64,000 nucleotides of DNA from the NCBI RefSeq assembly GCF_041438865.1, contig NZ_CP109450.1, forward strand, positions 1,054,001 to 1,118,000. The letters are read 5' to 3'. The notes under the pieces were generated by a model. It was not told the DNA's origin. It made no database searches and saw only the letters and a list, made by a program, of their open reading frames with translations. Numbering within the stretch: position 1 is the first letter of the stretch; every line of letters starts with the position of its first letter. The position numbers and the translations under genes were made by a program. Shown here in pieces: positions 13,589-20,449 of the stretch. This DNA comes from Streptomyces sp. NBC_01471 (GTDB lineage Bacteria; Actinomycetota; Actinomycetes; Streptomycetales; Streptomycetaceae).

Positions 13589-14992
13589 TCAGCCGGTCGC
13601 CGAGCCGGCCAGGGCGGTCGCGGTGCGGTCCCCGCTCCGTGCGGGAGTGTCGAACCACTGGTTGGCGGGGCGCGGCAGACCGTAGTGGTCGCGCAGCGTG
13701 CGCCCCGTGTACTCGGTGCGGAACAGTCCGCGCTCCTGGAGGATCGGCACCACCCGGTCCACGAAGGTCTCAAGACCGGAGGGCAGCACGGCGGGCATGA
13801 TGTTGAACCCGTCGGCCGCTCCGCTGTCGTACCAGTGCTCGATGGTGTCGGCCACCTGCTCCGGCGTACCCGCGAAAGTGCGGTGTCCACGGCCGCCGCC
13901 CAGCCGTCCGATGAGCTGCCGCACCGTCAGCCGTTCGCGCCGGGCCAGCTCCACGACGAGGGTGTACCGGCTCTTCGCCCCCTCGATCTCGTCCTCGGTG
14001 GGAATGCCGTCGGGCAGTTCCTCGTCCAGTGCCAGGTCGTCGGGGGCGATCCTCAGCCGCTCGGCCAGCTGGCGCTTGGCGTACTCGGGCATGATCAGCC
14101 GGTCCAGTTCGGCGTCCAGTTCGCGCGCCTCGGCCTCGGTGTCGCCGATGACCGGGACGATCCCCGGCAGGATCTTGATGCCGACCGGGTCACGGCCCGC
14201 GGCCTGCGCGCGCCGCTTGACGTCCTGGTAGAAGGCGATCCCCTCCTCCAGTGTCTGCTGGGCGGTGAACACCGCCTCCGCGCAGCGGGCCGCGAAGTCC
14301 TTCCCGTCCTCGCTGGAGCCTGCCTGCACCAGCAGCGGATACCCCTGCGGCGGGCGCTGGACGTTCAGCGGTCCGTCGACGCGGAAGTACTCGCCGCTGT
14401 GGTCGATGCGGCGTACGCGGTCCGCCAGTGCGTGCACCCCGCGCTCCTTGTCGGCCACCACGGCGTCGTCGGCCCAGCTGTCCCACAGTTTGGTCGACAC
14501 CTCCACGAACTCGGCGGCCCTGCGGTACCGGTCGCGGTGCAGCGGGGTGTCGTCCAGTCCGAAGTTGCGGGCCGCGTCGGCGCCCGCGGTGGTGACGATG
14601 TTCCAGCCGGCCCGGCCCCCGGAGACATGGTCGAGCGAGGCGAACCTGCGGGCCAGGTTGTACGGCTCGTTGTAGCTGGTGGAAGCGGTGGCGATGAGAC
14701 CGATGTGCTCGGTGGCGCCCGCCAGTGCGGTGAGCAGGACGGTGGGCTCCAGCTTCGCCGCCGGCCGCCTGCCCGGGTCGCCCATCAGGACGGGGCTGTC
14801 GGCGAGGAACAGTGAGTCGAGTCTGCCGCGCTCGGCGATCCGGGCGAGGTTCTTGTAGTGCTCGATGTCGGAGTCGGCGCGCGCCGGGCTCTCGGCGAGC
14901 CGCCAGGACGCCTCGTGGTGCCCGGTGGACATCAGGAACGCGTTCAGGTGCAGCGGGGTGCGGCCGGGGGCGGTACCAGGGGTACGTGGCAT
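13589..14992 (-). CDS. FMN-dependent monooxygenase, NtaA/SnaA/DszA family
   Basis: 467-residue luciferase-like flavin oxidoreductase. The blocks LHLNAFLMSTGHHEASWR, YKNLARIAERGRLDSLFLAD and SGGRAGWNIVTT are characteristic of the nitrilotriacetate/pristinamycin/dibenzothiophene-sulfone monooxygenases. These are two-component enzymes that need FMNH2 from a separate reductase, here supplied by the flavin reductase at the head of the same operon. With an Ssu-type ABC importer between them, the natural role is probably oxidative release of sulfur from an organosulfur compound. The exact substrate cannot be read from the sequence. Start ATG at 14992. Confidence 0.88.
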   Translation of the reverse strand: MPRTPGTAPGRTPLHLNAFLMSTGHHEASWRLAESPARADSDIEHYKNLARIAERGRLDSLFLADSPVLMGDPGRRPAAKLEPTVLLTALAGATEHIGLIATASTSYNEPYNLARRFASLDHVSGGRAGWNIVTTAGADAARNFGLDDTPLHRDRYRRAAEFVEVSTKLWDSWADDAVVADKERGVHALADRVRRIDHSGEYFRVDGPLNVQRPPQGYPLLVQAGSSEDGKDFAARCAEAVFTAQQTLEEGIAFYQDVKRRAQAAGRDPVGIKILPGIVPVIGDTEAEARELDAELDRLIMPEYAKRQLAERLRIAPDDLALDEELPDGIPTEDEIEGAKSRYTLVVELARRERLTVRQLIGRLGGGRGHRTFAGTPEQVADTIEHWYDSGAADGFNIMPAVLPSGLETFVDRVVPILQERGLFRTEYTGRTLRDHYGLPRPANQWFDTPARSGDRTATALAGSATG

Positions 14993-15101: not shown

Positions 15102-15860
15102 CTAGGAAAGGGCGTCGGCCCGGGGCTCGGGCTCCGTCACGCCGAGGGCGGCGAGCAGGATGTCGCGGTACTCCTGGAACCGGGGATCGCGCCGGGTCCG
15201 GGGTGCGGCGAGGTCGACGGTCAGATCGAGGGAGATCCGGCCGCCGTCCAGGACCAGCACCCGGTCGGCGAGTTCGACCGCCTCGTCGACGTCGTGGGTC
15301 ACGAGCAGCACGGCCGGCCGGTGGCGTTCGTACAGCTCGCGCAGCAGCCCGTGCATCCTGATCCGGGTGAGTGCGTCCAGCGCGCCGAACGGCTCGTCCG
15401 CCAGGAGCAGTTCGGGGTCGCGGACCAGGGCGCGGGCGAGGGCGGCGCGCTGTTGCTCGCCGCCGGACAGTTCGTGCGGCCAGGCCCGCTCGCGGCCCGC
15501 CAGGCCGACCTCGTCCAGGGCGGTCAGCCCGCGCTCCCGGACCCCGGGGCCGCGCACCCCGAGCACCACGTTGTCCAGCAGGCGCAGCCAGGGCAGCAGC
15601 CGGGAGTCCTGGAAGGAGAGCGACACCCGCTCGGGGACGCTGAGTCCGCCCGAGCCGTCGACCGTGTGGTCGAGGCGGGCCACGGCCCGCAGCAGGGTGG
15701 ACTTGCCCGAGCCGCTGGGGCCCAGGAGCGCGGTGAACTCGCCCCGGGCCAGCGTCAGGTCGAGCTCGTGCAGGATGGTCCGGTCGCCGAAGCGGCGCAC
15801 CAGCTTCGTCAGCCGTACGGCCGGAGGCGCGGCGGTCAGCCCGCCAGGGTGCGTCGCCAC
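15102..15860 (-). CDS. ssuB: ABC transporter ATP-binding protein, sulfonate type (SsuB-like)
   Basis: 252 residues from a GTG start that overlaps the permease gene by 25 bp. Walker A GPSGSGKST at 47-55, Q-loop SFQDSRLLPW, signature LSGGEQQR and Walker B LLLADEP are all intact. This is the cytoplasmic ATPase of an importer whose other parts are encoded immediately upstream. The length and the QDSRLLPW block match nitrate/sulfonate/taurine transporters. Confidence 0.9.
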   Translation of the reverse strand: MATHPGGLTAAPPAVRLTKLVRRFGDRTILHELDLTLARGEFTALLGPSGSGKSTLLRAVARLDHTVDGSGGLSVPERVSLSFQDSRLLPWLRLLDNVVLGVRGPGVRERGLTALDEVGLAGRERAWPHELSGGEQQRAALARALVRDPELLLADEPFGALDALTRIRMHGLLRELYERHRPAVLLVTHDVDEAVELADRVLVLDGGRISLDLTVDLAAPRTRRDPRFQEYRDILLAALGVTEPEPRADALS

Positions 15861-16810
15861 GACAGGGCCCTCCTTCCGATCGCCTGGACCAGGGCGTCCG
15901 ATGCGAAGCCGAAGACCCCGTAGACCACAAGACCGACGATGATGACGTCGGACTGCGCGTACTGCTGGGCCTGGAACATCATGTAGCCGATTCCGCTGGT
16001 GGCGTTGATCTGCTCGACCACGATCAGGCCGAGCCAGGAGGCGGTCACACCCAGCCGCAGCCCGACGAAGAAACCGGGCAGCGAACCGGGGCCGACCACC
16101 TTGCGGATGAACTGGACGCGGCTGAGCCCCAGGGATTCCGCCAGCTCCACATACCGGCTGTCGATGCCGGTCAGCGCGGCGTACGTGTTGACGTACACCG
16201 TCACCGCGACCCCGAGGGCGATGACGGTGACCTTCATCTGCTCGCCGATGCCCAGCCAGAGGATCAGCAGCGGCAGCATCGCCAGCGAGGGGATGGCCCG
16301 CTTGATCTGGAGCGGACCGTCGAGCAGGTACTCCCCGGTGCGGCTCAGGCCGGCCGCCACCGCGAGGGCCGTTCCGGCCGCCACCCCGAAGAGGAGCCCG
16401 AGCCCGGCGCGCTGGAGCGAGATCAGCACGTTCGCCTGGAGCCGTCCGTCGGCGGCCAGATCGCCCGCGGTGGAGAGCACGGTGCCGGGCCCGGAGAGGA
16501 TCCTCGGGTCGAGGCAGCCGAGGGCCGACGCGCCCCACCACACGACGACCACGAGTGCCGGTCCGATCAGCCGTCCGAAGGGCACGGCCCGGCCGGGCCC
16601 CAGCCGCCTGCGGGCGGAGCGGCCGGGGGGCCGGGTGCGGGACGGCGGTACGGACTCGGGGTGCTCCGGGCGGGGGCGCGCGGACTCAGGCTGTACGGAA
16701 TCAGGGCGTACGGAATCGGGTCGGGCGGAATCGGGTCGGGCGGCATCGGGGCGTACGGAGTCCGGATGCGCCGGGTCACGGAGCCGGGCGTCCGGCAGTA
16801 CTTCGGTCAT
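15836..16810 (-). CDS. ssuC: ABC transporter permease, sulfonate type (SsuC-like), with repeat N terminus
   Basis: 324 residues. Residues ~75-324 are a standard permease with six hydrophobic helices and the EAA loop (VELAESLGLSRVQFIRKVVGPGSLP). Before it lies a hydrophilic ~70-residue extension made largely of a five-residue repeat (RPDSA, RPDSV, RPDSV, QPESA, HPES), encoded by imperfect 15-bp DNA repeats at about 16670-16770. Family permeases normally lack this. The ATG overlaps the substrate-binding gene stop (ATGA). Confidence 0.88.
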   Translation of the reverse strand: MTEVLPDARLRDPAHPDSVRPDAARPDSARPDSVRPDSVQPESARPRPEHPESVPPSRTRPPGRSARRRLGPGRAVPFGRLIGPALVVVVWWGASALGCLDPRILSGPGTVLSTAGDLAADGRLQANVLISLQRAGLGLLFGVAAGTALAVAAGLSRTGEYLLDGPLQIKRAIPSLAMLPLLILWLGIGEQMKVTVIALGVAVTVYVNTYAALTGIDSRYVELAESLGLSRVQFIRKVVGPGSLPGFFVGLRLGVTASWLGLIVVEQINATSGIGYMMFQAQQYAQSDVIIVGLVVYGVFGFASDALVQAIGRRALSWRRTLAG

Positions 16811-17871
16811 GATCCCTCCCGGTAGGCGGCGGGCACGGCATCGGCCGCCAGCCGCTCGAAACGCCGGTCGAACCGCTTGGTGACGTCCTGCCGGGGGACG
16901 AAGCCGCCCGCGGCCATCAGGTCGGCGGTCTCCTGCTCCCAGGCGATGGCCCGGTCCCAGCGTGTGGTGAACACCGGTCTGCCCAGGGAAGCGACGATGC
17001 GCCTGCCGTCCGCGGCCGTGACGCCCTGGTCCTTGACGTAGTACCGCTCGATCCACCGGTCGGGGTGCTCCCACGCCCAGACCTGGCCGCGGGCCCAGAG
17101 CGGGATGAAGTCCCGGACGGCGGCGGCCTTCGCCCGGTCGTCCAGCACCTCGTCCGGTGCCCAGAGAACAGTGAGCAGGTCGACCACATCGGTGTGCACG
17201 CCCCGGGCGCCGTCCTTGGTGTACTGGCTGAGGTACTTGGTGAGCGTGGGCTCCGCGAGCGGGGCCACATCCACCTGTCCGGACTGGAGTGCGGTGAGGA
17301 ACTGGGTGCTGGGCAGGGCCACGAGTGTGACGTCGCTGTTGCGCAGACCGGCCTTCTTCAACGCCCGCAGGACGACCACGCCTTGTGCCTGGCCCTGCGA
17401 GAAGCCGATCTTCCTGCCCCGGAAGTCCGCGGCCTTCCTGATCGACGAGCCCGGGGCGGTGGCGAAGACGTACGCCGGGCGGTTGCGCTGCTGGACCGCC
17501 ACGATCCGCGCGCCGACCCCGATCGCGGCGGCCTGGATCGGGGGAATTCCCGCATTGGCCGCGAGGTCGATGGAGTGGGCGCGAAATCCCTGGATGATGT
17601 CGGGTCCCGCATTCAGATTCGGCCAGTCGGAGACAGTGAACCGGAGCTCCTTTTTCAGTCCGGACGGGGCAAGTTGAAGTTGTGTGGTCCGGACGGCCAC
17701 CGAGAGTTTCGTTCCCGGTGGCGGCGCGCCGGACGGGAGTTTCCCGAGCGGTTGCCCACTGGCTGCGGTACTGGTCTGCGGAGCGCTCCCGGCGAGACCG
17801 AGTACCGCTCCGCCCATGAGGGCGAGAAAGGACCGGCGGCCGGCGGGAACGGATGGCGGGAATGCTGGCAT
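16807..17871 (-). CDS. ssuA: ABC transporter substrate-binding protein, sulfonate type (SsuA-like)
   Basis: 354 residues with an N-terminal signal carrying twin arginines (GRRSFLALMGGAVLGLAGSA), so Tat export is likely. The periplasmic-binding fold is recognisable from GPDIIQGFRAHSIDLAANAGIPP and DFRGRKIGFSQGQ, like SsuA/TauA proteins that capture sulfonates. It follows the flavin reductase by 44 bp and overlaps the permease by 4 nt. Ligand specificity is unknown; with the monooxygenase it should be an organosulfur compound. Confidence 0.88.
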   Translation of the reverse strand: MPAFPPSVPAGRRSFLALMGGAVLGLAGSAPQTSTAASGQPLGKLPSGAPPPGTKLSVAVRTTQLQLAPSGLKKELRFTVSDWPNLNAGPDIIQGFRAHSIDLAANAGIPPIQAAAIGVGARIVAVQQRNRPAYVFATAPGSSIRKAADFRGRKIGFSQGQAQGVVVLRALKKAGLRNSDVTLVALPSTQFLTALQSGQVDVAPLAEPTLTKYLSQYTKDGARGVHTDVVDLLTVLWAPDEVLDDRAKAAAVRDFIPLWARGQVWAWEHPDRWIERYYVKDQGVTAADGRRIVASLGRPVFTTRWDRAIAWEQETADLMAAGGFVPRQDVTKRFDRRFERLAADAVPAAYREGS

Positions 17872-17915: not shown

Positions 17916-18437
17916 TCAGAGCGACCGGTAGGTACCGTCGTGGAACACCAGCGGGCCGCGGCCCCCGTCGAGCCAGGAGTCCTCGACCCGCGCCACCACG
18001 ATCCGGTGGTCCCCGGCGGGCACGGTCTGCTCGACGCGGACCCGCAGCCAGCCGGCCACCCCGCCGAGCACCGGCTCACCGCCCGGCAGCCGCCGCCACT
18101 CGGTGGGCGCGGCGAACCTGTCGATGCCGCTCGTCGCGAACGTTCTGGCCAGCGGCTCCTGGTCGGAGCCGAGGAAGTTGACCACGGCTGTGGTGGCGCG
18201 CTCGATGTGCGGCCAGGAGGAGGCGGTCTCCGCGATACCGAAGGACACCAGCGGCGGATCGAGGGAGAGCGAGGTGAGTGAGGTCGCGGTGAACCCGACC
18301 GGCCCCCGGCCGGAGTCGGCGGTGACGGCGACCACCCCGGCGGGATAGCGGCGGAACACCTGCCGGAACCGCTCGGGAGCGATTCCGGGTGCGGAGTACG
18401 AGGACGGCGCGGGATACGGAGCAGCGGTGACGGTCAT
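17916..18437 (-). CDS. Flavin reductase (FMN reductase partner)
   Basis: 173 residues of the flavin reductase domain family (FRQVFRRYPAGVVAVTAD, TATSLTSLSLDPPLVSF, FAAPTEWRRLPGGEPVL). It supplies reduced FMN to the two-component monooxygenase encoded at the other end of the operon. It is the first large gene of the transcript. Its start lies ~25 nt after a hairpin and ~150 nt after a short cysteine-containing leader ORF, suggesting attenuation control. Confidence 0.9.
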   Translation of the reverse strand: MTVTAAPYPAPSSYSAPGIAPERFRQVFRRYPAGVVAVTADSGRGPVGFTATSLTSLSLDPPLVSFGIAETASSWPHIERATTAVVNFLGSDQEPLARTFATSGIDRFAAPTEWRRLPGGEPVLGGVAGWLRVRVEQTVPAGDHRIVVARVEDSWLDGGRGPLVFHDGTYRSL

Positions 18438-18461
18438 GGTCTCCCCAGGGGAAATCGGCCC

Positions 18462-18491
18462 CGGGCATGCCGGATCAGCACGGCGTGCCCG
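18462..18491 (-). promoter_or_regulatory. Hairpin before the sulfur operon, possible attenuator
   Basis: 11-bp stem with one G-U pair and an 8-nt loop, in the mRNA reading CGGGCACGCCG-N8-CGGCAUGCCCG. It sits between the leader peptide ORF and the flavin reductase start, with a pyrimidine-rich tract (CTTTCCTTCATTCTTTTTCC) just before it. It could terminate transcription or mask the ribosome site. Confidence 0.5.
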
Positions 18492-18589
18492 AGAGCAGGA
18501 AAAAGAATGAAGGAAAGCGCGAGGGCGAGAATGCGGGAAAGCGGGGGATGCGCACGCTCTTCAGTGGGAGCGGGCGGGACACCCGGCTG

Positions 18590-18712
18590 TTATCGGGGCA
18601 CCCGGACGGGGCGACAACAGAAAAGGCGGGTGAAGACGCCGGCCGGCGCAGCCGCGCGGCAGTCGCATGCCCCATGGGGCATGCGCTGGGAAATCCGCTG
18701 CGGTCCGGTCAT
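18590..18712 (-). CDS. Cysteine-containing leader peptide of the sulfur operon
   Basis: 40-codon ORF: ATG at 18712, TAA at 18590-18592, GAGGA ribosome site 7 nt ahead. It has four cysteines, in ACDC (residues 15-18) and FCC (31-33). The adjacent pair is coded TGT TGT, a rare codon in this GC-rich genome. Actinomycetes are known to place short Cys-bearing reading frames ahead of sulfur assimilation genes, where stalling for lack of Cys-tRNA turns on the operon. Position, same-strand orientation and downstream hairpin all fit that. It has no resemblance to a structured protein. Expression and function are inferred. Confidence 0.6.
   Translation of the reverse strand: MTGPQRISQRMPHGACDCRAAAPAGVFTRLFCCRPVRVPR
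18664..18685. promoter_or_regulatory. Perfect 22-bp palindrome, candidate operator
   Basis: Arms CGCATGCCCCA and TGGGGCATGCG with no spacer. It lies inside the leader ORF, about 230 bp upstream of the flavin reductase gene and ~105 bp beyond the end of the ROK regulator gene. It could bind the ROK protein or a sulfur regulator, or fold in the leader RNA. Confidence 0.55.
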
Positions 18713-18791
18713 GAATCCATCCTCGCGTTCCGTTTCCCGCCCGGTCAACAATGCAACGTTCTGAATTAATCCGGTGCGCCGCCGGGGCCGG

Positions 18792-20063
18792 TCAGCACAC
18801 GGCGGACACTGCGGGCCAGGGGCCGAGCGGGTCCGCGTACAGGGCGCCCAGCGCCACCGCGCCGCCCGCGGTGGCCAGCACCGATCCGCTGAAACTGCCG
18901 GGCACCACCGCCTGTTCGGGGTCGTCACAGACCAGGGAGCGCTCGCCCGCCGCCGCCCTGAGCACGGCCAGACACTCCGGCAGCCGGGCGGCTCCCGGTT
19001 CGACGACCACCAGGACCTCGGGGTCGAATGTGTCCAGCAGCAGGGCCGCCGCCCGGCCGACGTACCGGGCCCGGTGCCTGAAGAGGTCCCGCGCTCGGGG
19101 TTCACCGGCCAGGGCGAGATCGAGCAGGGCGCTGAACGACGTTACGCACAGGCCCTGTTCGGCTGCCCGGCTCAGCAGTGCGGACTCCGAGGCCACGGAG
19201 TGGAGGCAGCCGGGCCTGGCACACATGCAGGCCACCGGGGCACCGGTCCGGCAGTCCGGGCCGACCGGCAGGTGCGCCACGCTCCCCGCACCGGCGCGCG
19301 GCCCCAGATGGACCGTCCCGGCGGAGGTGAAGGCTGCGTCGATGACGGCGCCGACGAAGAGCAGGACCGCGCTGGCGCGGGTGGTCACCTCACCGAACAT
19401 CTGCTCCGCGCGCGCCAGCGCCCGTGCGTGGCTGTCGACATGGACCGGCAGCCCGGTGGCTGCGGCGAGGTGCTCGCGTACCGGCACATCGCGCCAGCCG
19501 AGTTGGGGATGGTCCACGATCGTCCCGGCCGCGGGGTCGACCCGGTTCCCGGTGGCCACACCGAGCCCGAGCACGGTGCGGCCGCCCGCGTGCGCGGCGA
19601 CCAGCCCGGGCAGCCGCGCGGCCAGCCCGCCCAGCACCCGCCCGGGGGCCGTGTCCCGGTGCGGCTGCCGGTCCTCGGCCACGATCCGGCCGCGCAGGTC
19701 CATCAGCGAGAGTGTCGAGTGCGCCACGGCGATGTGCGCACCGGCCACCAGCCACTGACCGGTGTCGATCTCCACGGGGATGTGCGGCCGCCCGAGACCG
19801 CGGGGCCCCGCGGTCTCGGCGGCCTCCCGTATCAGCCCGCGCGCCAGCAGCTGTCTGGAGTGGCCGGTGACCGATGCGGGCGACAGCCCGGTGAGCCGGG
19901 CGACGGTGGAGCGCGCCACCGGCCCGTGGTCGAGGATCGCGGCGAGTACGGCGCCGGTGGCACCGCCGGCAGCACGGCGCTGCGGCCCGGCGGCCGGAAT
20001 GTCGGAGCGGCGGAAGGGGGCGGGGCGGCGGGCGGGCGCGGGCGGACGGTCCACGGATGGCAT
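18792..20063 (-). CDS. ROK-family transcriptional regulator
   Basis: 423 residues from the ATG at 20063. An N-terminal winged helix (GAVLAAILDHGPVARSTVARLTGLSPASVTGHSRQLL, ~50-90) precedes a ROK sugar-kinase-like domain. The ROK zinc motif is present as CMCARPGCLHSVAS. Such proteins act as ligand-responsive repressors or activators. It sits directly upstream of, and in the same direction as, the sulfur operon, so it is a good candidate for its regulator. A longer in-frame start at 20288 exists, but the added residues look random and family length favours 20063. Confidence 0.85.
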   Translation of the reverse strand: MPSVDRPPAPARRPAPFRRSDIPAAGPQRRAAGGATGAVLAAILDHGPVARSTVARLTGLSPASVTGHSRQLLARGLIREAAETAGPRGLGRPHIPVEIDTGQWLVAGAHIAVAHSTLSLMDLRGRIVAEDRQPHRDTAPGRVLGGLAARLPGLVAAHAGGRTVLGLGVATGNRVDPAAGTIVDHPQLGWRDVPVREHLAAATGLPVHVDSHARALARAEQMFGEVTTRASAVLLFVGAVIDAAFTSAGTVHLGPRAGAGSVAHLPVGPDCRTGAPVACMCARPGCLHSVASESALLSRAAEQGLCVTSFSALLDLALAGEPRARDLFRHRARYVGRAAALLLDTFDPEVLVVVEPGAARLPECLAVLRAAAGERSLVCDDPEQAVVPGSFSGSVLATAGGAVALGALYADPLGPWPAVSAVC

Positions 20064-20449
20064 CCCGTTGCTCGGTGGGTGGCACTCCAGTCGGGCTCCG
20101 CTGCGGAGCCGCACGGCAGACCCCGCCGGCGAGCGGCCGGCCGAGCTCTGCTTCTTCCGGGGAGGGCGCCGCGCTGCCGGGAGGAACCGGTACGAGGAGA
20201 TGGCATCAGCGGACGGCGCCGTACAGCCAGGGCGTTCAGGCCCGGTGACACGCCGCGGAGCACACACGCTTGAGGTCGACATGACCACGAGTCGTCAGGT
20301 GTGCGGAGGGCTGCATGGCGCGCAACGTATCCGGCACGGCTGAACCCGGTCAAACCACCGACCACATCATGGACGGCCGGGACAGTGGGCCGCTGCGCCC
20401 CGGCCGGGGCGATGTGCGGCCCGTACGCAGCCGTGGTCCGCCCCGCGGA
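20064..20449. other. Intergenic region, no gene seen
   Basis: About 385 bases between the ROK regulator start and the end of the P450 gene (both minus). It should contain the ROK promoter. Open frames here are extensions or shadows without ribosome sites. I see no notable repeats. Confidence 0.5.

Follow-up and report, generated by a model that had tools for sequence, protein, structure and literature searches.

Leaderless upstream ORFs rich in Cys codons have been described in mycobacteria (PMC4633059), and their response to cysteine is credited to Canestrari 2020 in later accounts (PMC9094748, PMC9031893, PMC13236596). The locus discussed here, which lies in a 64-kb window (the whole stretch of Streptomyces DNA that was analysed), resembles the mycobacterial polycysteine leaderless sORF attenuators in that a short ORF stands first in a sulfur operon, with Cys codons clustered near the stop of that ORF and a leaderless start, the last of these being predicted. 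It differs from them in that the group-1 peptide of Streptomyces (typically 40 codons, MTSRQRN...CCRPCPG) has no match among the leader models of NCBIfam, and in that the leader has an internal covarying hairpin and an operon-specific promoter element.

Other Cys leaders without terminators, for which Rho was proposed, have been predicted for Mycobacterium, P. acnes and B. longum (PMC1262725). They have in common with the present leader the Cys codons near the stop and the lack of a conserved terminator, and the pyrimidine motifs reported for them suggest Rho; the cases described in that paper are cys operons of Mycobacterium and P. acnes and cbs of B. longum, whereas those treated here are ssu operons of Streptomyces.

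In C. glutamicum, the ROK-type regulators SsuR and CysR control sulfonate and sulfate genes, and leaderless transcripts have been reported for cysR, ssuR and the sulfonate-use genes (PMC2580772). A ROK-family regulator is tied to sulfonate or sulfate genes in both organisms, the window's ROK protein being likened to SsuR and CysR by family and gene position; the C. glutamicum system was studied there as transcription activation. Finally, leaderless leader peptides, some of them without U-tract terminators, are described for S. lividans (PMC8079986), where Table 4 lists Leu, Trp, Ala, Ile, Met and Thr leaders and holds no Cys leader or ssu operon. One entry of that table, the metL leader before metNIQ, is listed as Met-dependent and has CMCRRMC near its end, so that it might also sense cysteine. 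No title describing the present leader was found among the matches listed in the open-licence literature.

The leader ORF ahead of the organosulfur operon

The features of the locus are as follows.

18792-20288, minus strand: ROK-family transcriptional regulator, upstream of the leader (PF00480, E 2.2e-26)
18590-18712, minus strand: leader ORF, 40 codons with 4 Cys codons, predicted leaderless
18659-18667, minus strand: Cys codons TGC-GAC-TGC (TGC at 18665-18667 and TGC at 18659-18661)
18614-18619, minus strand: TGT TGT, two neighbouring Cys codons that form the conserved cluster near the C terminus
18440-18446, minus strand: Shine-Dalgarno sequence (SD) GGGGAGA of the flavin reductase
17916-18437, minus strand: flavin reductase, first gene of the operon (PF01613, E 1.4e-38)
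16807-17871, minus strand: SsuA-like sulfonate-binding protein (TIGR01728, E 1.5e-29, below the curated cut-off)
15836-16810, minus strand: SsuC-like permease, start not fixed (PRK11365, E 6.2e-51, below the curated cut-off)
15102-15926, minus strand: SsuB-like ATPase, start not fixed (PRK11247, E 1.2e-70, below the curated cut-off)
13589-14992, minus strand: NtaA/DmoA-family FMN-dependent monooxygenase (TIGR03860, 558.7 bits, over the cut-off)

The leader ORF, whose peptide is MTGPQRISQRMPHGACDCRAAAPAGVFTRLFCCRPVRVPR followed by the stop, sits between the ROK gene and the flavin reductase gene, all on the minus strand. An earlier sequence-only reading had pointed to this ORF, with its 40 codons and four Cys codons including TGT TGT, as lying directly before a flavin reductase-Ssu-monooxygenase operon, and both are indeed in place: the same-strand genes that follow are matched by PF01613, TIGR01728, PRK11365, PRK11247 and TIGR03860, and the matches to SsuA, flavin reductase and monooxygenase identify a sulfur-metabolism operon. 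The Rfam search gave 0 matches at gathering score in the 64-kb window. A cytochrome P450 gene (20450-21697) lies upstream of the window's ROK gene and is kept in one other locus, L061.

The flavin reductase was tried as a search protein and dropped for SsuA, as its relatives reached at most about 54% identity and 29 of the 30 loci fetched with it (flanks up to about 1.5 kb) had no ssuA match, the single one that did being the window itself. The SsuA search (E 1e-40) found a match in 145 of 392 genomes of the genus, with 80 named loci. Among the 110 loci examined (L031-L140), 68 had both the ROK and the flavin reductase matches needed to delimit the spacer, and these retain the order ROK, leader, flavin reductase; removal of spacers at least 97% similar left 55 non-redundant loci. 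The same reading had staked itself on conservation of the ORF and its Cys codons in relatives, and 55/55 of these loci (order ROK, leader, flavin reductase, ssuA) have, at the same place, a short ORF that contains two or more Cys codons. For L048, L049 and L051 the start was taken as the ATG at 30-31 nt; the automatic choice of start, which fell on a wrong upstream ATG in these three, gave 52/55.

The leaders are mostly 37-43 codons long (range 18-56), a typical group-1 peptide being MTSRQRNS...RSCRAAAP...ARRSCCRPCPGNR, and they hold two (11 leaders), three (13), four (20), five (8) or six (3) Cys codons. In the reading frame of the leaders, 199 of 2155 codons (9.2%) encode Cys, against 61 and 39 of 2100 in the other two frames and 294 of 21817 (1.35%) in the portions counted of the ROK and reductase genes on either side. 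The choice of codon is also reversed, with 148 TGT and 51 TGC in the leaders versus 56 and 238 in the neighbouring genes; the leader rows are related by descent, and neither the Cys nor the codon counts are independent events. Cys peaks at 5, 8 and 9 codons before the leader stop across the 55 loci, and this cluster near the stop of a short ORF, as in polycysteine attenuators, is found in the group-1 leaders and in those of the sister operons discussed below. The non-Cys codons of the leaders have a GC content of 0.70, 0.74 and 0.80 by codon position, which is a weak coding signal; G/C skew is described as lacking in mycobacterial Cys sORFs (PMC9094748).

Two smaller features of the alignment deserve mention. 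The first six codons (18 bases) are well conserved, some synonymous sites included, perhaps for leaderless initiation. In the window and its nearest relatives, small indels at 18590-18620 alter the conserved CPG and remove the third Cys, while ORF length and stop are kept.

The NCBIfam models NF042933, NF042934 and NF042936 gave no match among the seven group-1 peptides scanned (E 0.1 for the window peptide, E 1 for five other group-1 peptides and the L053 peptide), which agrees with the earlier remark that this leader is unlike the usual short Cys leaders. Judged from these comparisons, the conserved ORF is quite likely a cysteine-sensing leader, or attenuator, of the flavin reductase-ssu-monooxygenase operon. 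Among the points against this reading are that the window is without the third conserved Cys (CPG), that 11 of the 55 leaders have two Cys codons only, and that the translational route of mycobacteria was not reproduced by simple folding. Of the cysteine-responsive layout put forward from the sequence, the conserved Cys leader before the ssu operon is supported (55/55 loci), whereas the ribosome site and the palindrome as a control layer are not, as the following sections describe.

Promoter element and predicted leaderless start

Upstream of the leader ATG, three features were located.

18744-18769, minus strand: promoter element TTAATTCA-N13-TTGAC, candidate box of the ROK regulator, overlapping the -35 hexamer
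18743-18748, minus strand: -35 hexamer TTGACC, from the consensus of the aligned loci
18719-18724, minus strand: -10 hexamer GAGGAT, with 6 nt between it and the ATG; spacer 18, predicted transcript start 18712

The consensus before the ATG reads CCGAcTTAATTCAG-nnn-GTTGCATTGTTGACC, an 18-nt spacer, GANRAT, six bases (GGATTC) and the ATG. Of the 49 equally spaced loci, 48 have GANRAT at -12 to -7 and the other has AAGGAT, so that in 49/49 the second base of the hexamer is A and the sixth is T. An SD-like 4-mer precedes the leader ATG in only 16 of the same 49, and the "good ribosome site" credited to this ORF at first sight is not supported: GAGGAT is better read, on this alignment, as a -10 hexamer than as a ribosome site. 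Because the -10/-35 geometry is conserved, the predicted transcript start is the leader ATG itself, in 49/49 equally spaced loci as far as sequence predicts a start; the leader transcript thus probably begins on or next to the A of the ATG, as a leaderless mRNA. Against this, a generic sigma-70 scan lists no promoter between 18300 and 18900, GAGGAT having just 3/6 bases in common with TATAAT. For S. lividans, promoters with a -10 of TAnnnT and a -35 of nTGACn are described, and leaderless transcripts make up 17% of the total (PMC8079986).

The pattern TTAATTCA-N13-TTGAC has one exact site in the window's own genome and, across 150 genomes of the genus, 52 sites spread over 51 of them, with 0 occurrences of the reversed control pattern; a version with N14 spacing was wrong, missing the window's own site, and was replaced by N13. 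In 29 of the 30 sites fetched with the element, an ATG follows after 30-32 nt, and the ORF that begins there is no longer than 40 codons and includes two or more Cys codons. The chance of such an ORF at random positions is 0.17% (strict) or 3.3% (loose). The search does not depend on the ORF; many of its sites, however, adjoin SsuA matches, so that they are largely the same operons. The sole site without a following Cys leader is L181 (G167:C22:7541-7566).

Of the 110 loci fetched with SsuA, 41 beyond the main 68 (all but L101) were scanned for the promoter motif, which was present in 25, 24 of them with a Cys ORF (the exception is L106), and in none of the other 16. Motif and Cys ORF occurred together in 0 of 15 loci from other genera (L104-L116, L120, L139), Cys ORFs being sought only where the motif was present; the motif was also missing from two Streptomyces loci, L057 and L117.

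As ROK-type SsuR and CysR control sulfur genes in C. glutamicum, the adjacent ROK protein is a natural candidate for binding this element, which is probably the box of that regulator. Two superimposed layers of control had been suspected at this locus, with the palindrome as the second; that role falls more likely, from the sequence comparison, to the promoter element at 18744-18769 beside the ROK gene.

The palindrome within the leader

18664-18685, minus strand: 22-bp palindrome, RNA hairpin in the ORF; conserved core 18667-18682, covarying stem

The palindrome that had been noticed overlapping the ORF is real, and perfect 22-mer palindromes are rare in the window, with two per 64 kb (18664-18685 and 19795-19816). 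This rarity is what favours taking it as a DNA operator, with the ORF incidental. The relatives argue otherwise. In an ungapped alignment of 54 distinct sequences from the ATG, the stem 31-35 with 42-46 (in the window 18678-18682 with 18667-18671) keeps each pair in 49-53 of 54 sequences, while the outer pairs 28-49 and 29-48 are formed in 19 and 17 only. Most relatives are not palindromic through the loop, the pair 36-41 being standard in 12/54, and the stem bases change pairwise, with both sides altered in 19/54 and 14/54 at two positions.

When the pair 30-47 is added, 88.3% of cells are paired versus 78.3 after shuffling, double-change cells number 44 against a shuffled mean of 18.5, and the covariation score is 0.411 against 0.253; these three measures were equalled by 0 of 500 shuffles and the other two of the five were weaker (reached by 35 and 16 of 500), the rows being related, so that such shuffles can be exceeded through kinship. 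Slid controls gave 19-56% paired, RNAalifold unaided recovers four of the pairs, and the region folds relative to shuffles with z -1.15, the strongest among the regions compared. Because the palindrome sequence drifts while the pairing stays, it belongs to the leader as an RNA hairpin, and the window's perfect palindrome is, on this alignment, an extreme case of a covarying RNA hairpin in a coding sequence. With the ORF conserved independently of the palindrome, the operator reading was rejected as scarcely credible, and the palindrome is not supported as a separate control layer.

In the trp leader of E. coli, a polymerase pause hairpin keeps polymerase and ribosome together, and by analogy the hairpin in the present ORF may act as a polymerase pause. 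The second perfect palindrome, AGACCGCGGGGCCCCGCGGTCT at 19795-19816, lies within the ROK regulator gene.

From the leader stop to the flavin reductase

18447-18589, minus strand: C-rich, G-poor stretch from the leader stop to the reductase SD, candidate Rho-loading region
18463-18490, minus strand: predicted hairpin of high stability, immediately before the SD of the reductase, in the window and the three relatives closest to it

The C-over-G skew of the 110 nt ending 15 nt before the reductase start is 0.27 (54 leaders), against 0.08 for 126 regions upstream of other genes in these loci, with genes called by a rough ORF rule. Counted over up to 110 nt past the stop, the mean is 0.21, a value reached by 4.6% of same-size window stretches, and the window's own skew is 0.30, reached by 0.8% of them. 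The RNA after the stop is accordingly C-rich and G-poor, as in Rho-dependent tna-type control; yet the folding of the post-stop stretches slightly exceeds that of shuffles (z -0.68 and -0.69), which speaks against a fully open Rho site.

Classical attenuation through an intrinsic terminator and antiterminator appears improbable. Possible hairpins around and past the stop can be made out within clades (our own reading), but the GC-rich hairpin with a U-run between leader and gene that characterizes trp-type control was not found in the window, where no terminator-like site occurs within 18300-18900, and such sites are not enriched among the relatives, with 9 of 55 leaders having one against 7.6 expected by mononucleotide shuffling. 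As for a common fold around the stop, the bases look conserved within clades (one view on 30 loci), but the four pairs tested show hardly any covariation, and no such fold is claimed.

A second alternative is translational attenuation, in which the leader RNA masks the reductase SD and a ribosome stalled on the Cys codons frees it. Translation attenuation is the mechanism reported for the Cys genes of M. smegmatis (PMC13236596, citing Canestrari 2020), and the reductase SD is predicted to be mostly paired, with a mean unpaired probability of 0.14, a figure for these leaders alone; in the window it lies within a predicted local hairpin. Simulated stalling at the Cys codons, however, brought no change in SD accessibility in the 48 of 55 leaders folded (one with an uncertain reductase start and six with long spacers were left out): the unpaired probability was 0.136 when free, 0.145 when stalled at Cys and 0.135 with the ribosome at the stop, by static folding. 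Nor is the reductase region from -50 to +5 more folded than shuffles (z +0.20). The mycobacterial mechanism is described as translational, whereas folding here did not reproduce that route, which is possible for these leaders and rather unlikely.

On balance, a Rho-type route seems preferable to SD unmasking or an intrinsic terminator, because of the C-rich stretch, the lack of terminator enrichment and the unchanged SD on simulated stalling. Starting from what the sequences establish, namely the ORF with its Cys codons, the promoter element, the hairpin and the C-rich stretch, we infer the leaderless start, ROK binding, stalling, its direction and Rho in the following course. The promoter, with a -35 that overlaps the operon-specific element, would start transcription on the A of the leader ATG or beside it, and ribosomes would initiate at the 5'-terminal AUG. 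When Cys-tRNA is scarce, the ribosome would stall at the Cys codons, mostly UGU, shortly ahead of the stop; when cysteine is ample, it would reach the stop and depart. RNA polymerase may be held at the hairpin in the ORF until a ribosome catches up. How much operon mRNA or protein is made would depend on what the leader ribosome is doing, low cysteine presumably giving more. Once the ribosome is gone, Rho would end transcription, likeliest in the C-rich stretch after the stop. Taken alone, this Rho step has a little under an even chance, and it contains a gap, in that a stalled ribosome would leave most of the C-rich stretch uncovered.

The hairpin predicted at 18463-18490 fits the downstream hairpin of the earlier reading. 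It is shared, with a similar loop around TGATCC, by the window, L032, L061 and L062, and this clade may therefore differ from the other leaders.

Sister operons and other Cys leaders

The 29 element-fetched loci with a Cys leader comprise 5 of the window's type and 24 of a sister operon, in which SsuA is about 55% identical and the ROK gene precedes ssuA with no reductase gene between them. The sister leader is MSCRTLCC or a variant of 8-12 codons; a few genomes have MSSxRVQVPLTKCRVVDLMRVARTRCC instead, a peptide similar to the Ms5788A leader family but scoring far under the cut-off of that model. Against NF042933, two peptides of sister operons score no more than 15.8 and 14.6 bits (cut-off 45). 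A set of 43 distinct sister sequences, all selected for having two Cys codons or more, has Cys at the second-to-last codon in 43 and at the final codon in 42, with TGT used 83 times and TGC 45 times.

These sister leaders also bear on the idea that the ORF encodes a small Cys-rich protein acting in trans on metal or redox. The N-terminal codons of the window's type of leader are well conserved, as such a protein would have them, but conserved synonymous sites near the start (columns 6 and 15) point to nucleic-acid constraint, leader length varies from 18 to 56 codons while the residues between the Cys codons drift, and most sister operons have just 8-12 codons at the same place (27 in 3/43). 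A function in trans is very improbable on these grounds.

A cysteine leader is known in principle; what is new, within the literature searched, is the sequence family, the hairpin and the operon-specific promoter element. Its role is most likely to have the sulfur-scavenging enzymes made only when cysteine is short. If this is true, cysteine-responsive leaderless attenuation, described for cys-type genes of mycobacteria, would also cover the scavenging of organosulfur compounds by Streptomyces. The two kinds of leader, of about 40 and of 8-12 codons, form a large natural series under one promoter element, with which it can be tested how the ribosome on a leaderless leader controls the downstream operon in high-GC actinobacteria, and why the less used Cys codon is kept. 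The element, present about once per genome where it occurs, also finds such operons from DNA alone. More tentatively, and with clearly less than an even chance, the features may define a distinct Streptomyces class of cysteine attenuator, with a ROK-linked element about once per genome, a leaderless leader either of 40 codons with a pausing hairpin in its ORF or of the MSCRTLCC type, UGU selected over the commoner UGC for sensitivity to stalling and Rho acting on C-rich RNA past the stop.

The window's genome also holds, at G000:C1:4245105-4245161 (L185), an Ms5788A-like Cys leader, MKQQADLTKRRAVDLCRVAAMLCRAF, the translation being our own reading. It scores 42.2 bits, just under the cut-off of 45, for a family model that gives weak sub-cut-off signals in 7 of 14 unrelated control genomes. 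It lies about 190 nt before a rhodanese-like gene, named from our own reading of the sequence, and the organism probably uses this known kind of Cys leader too.
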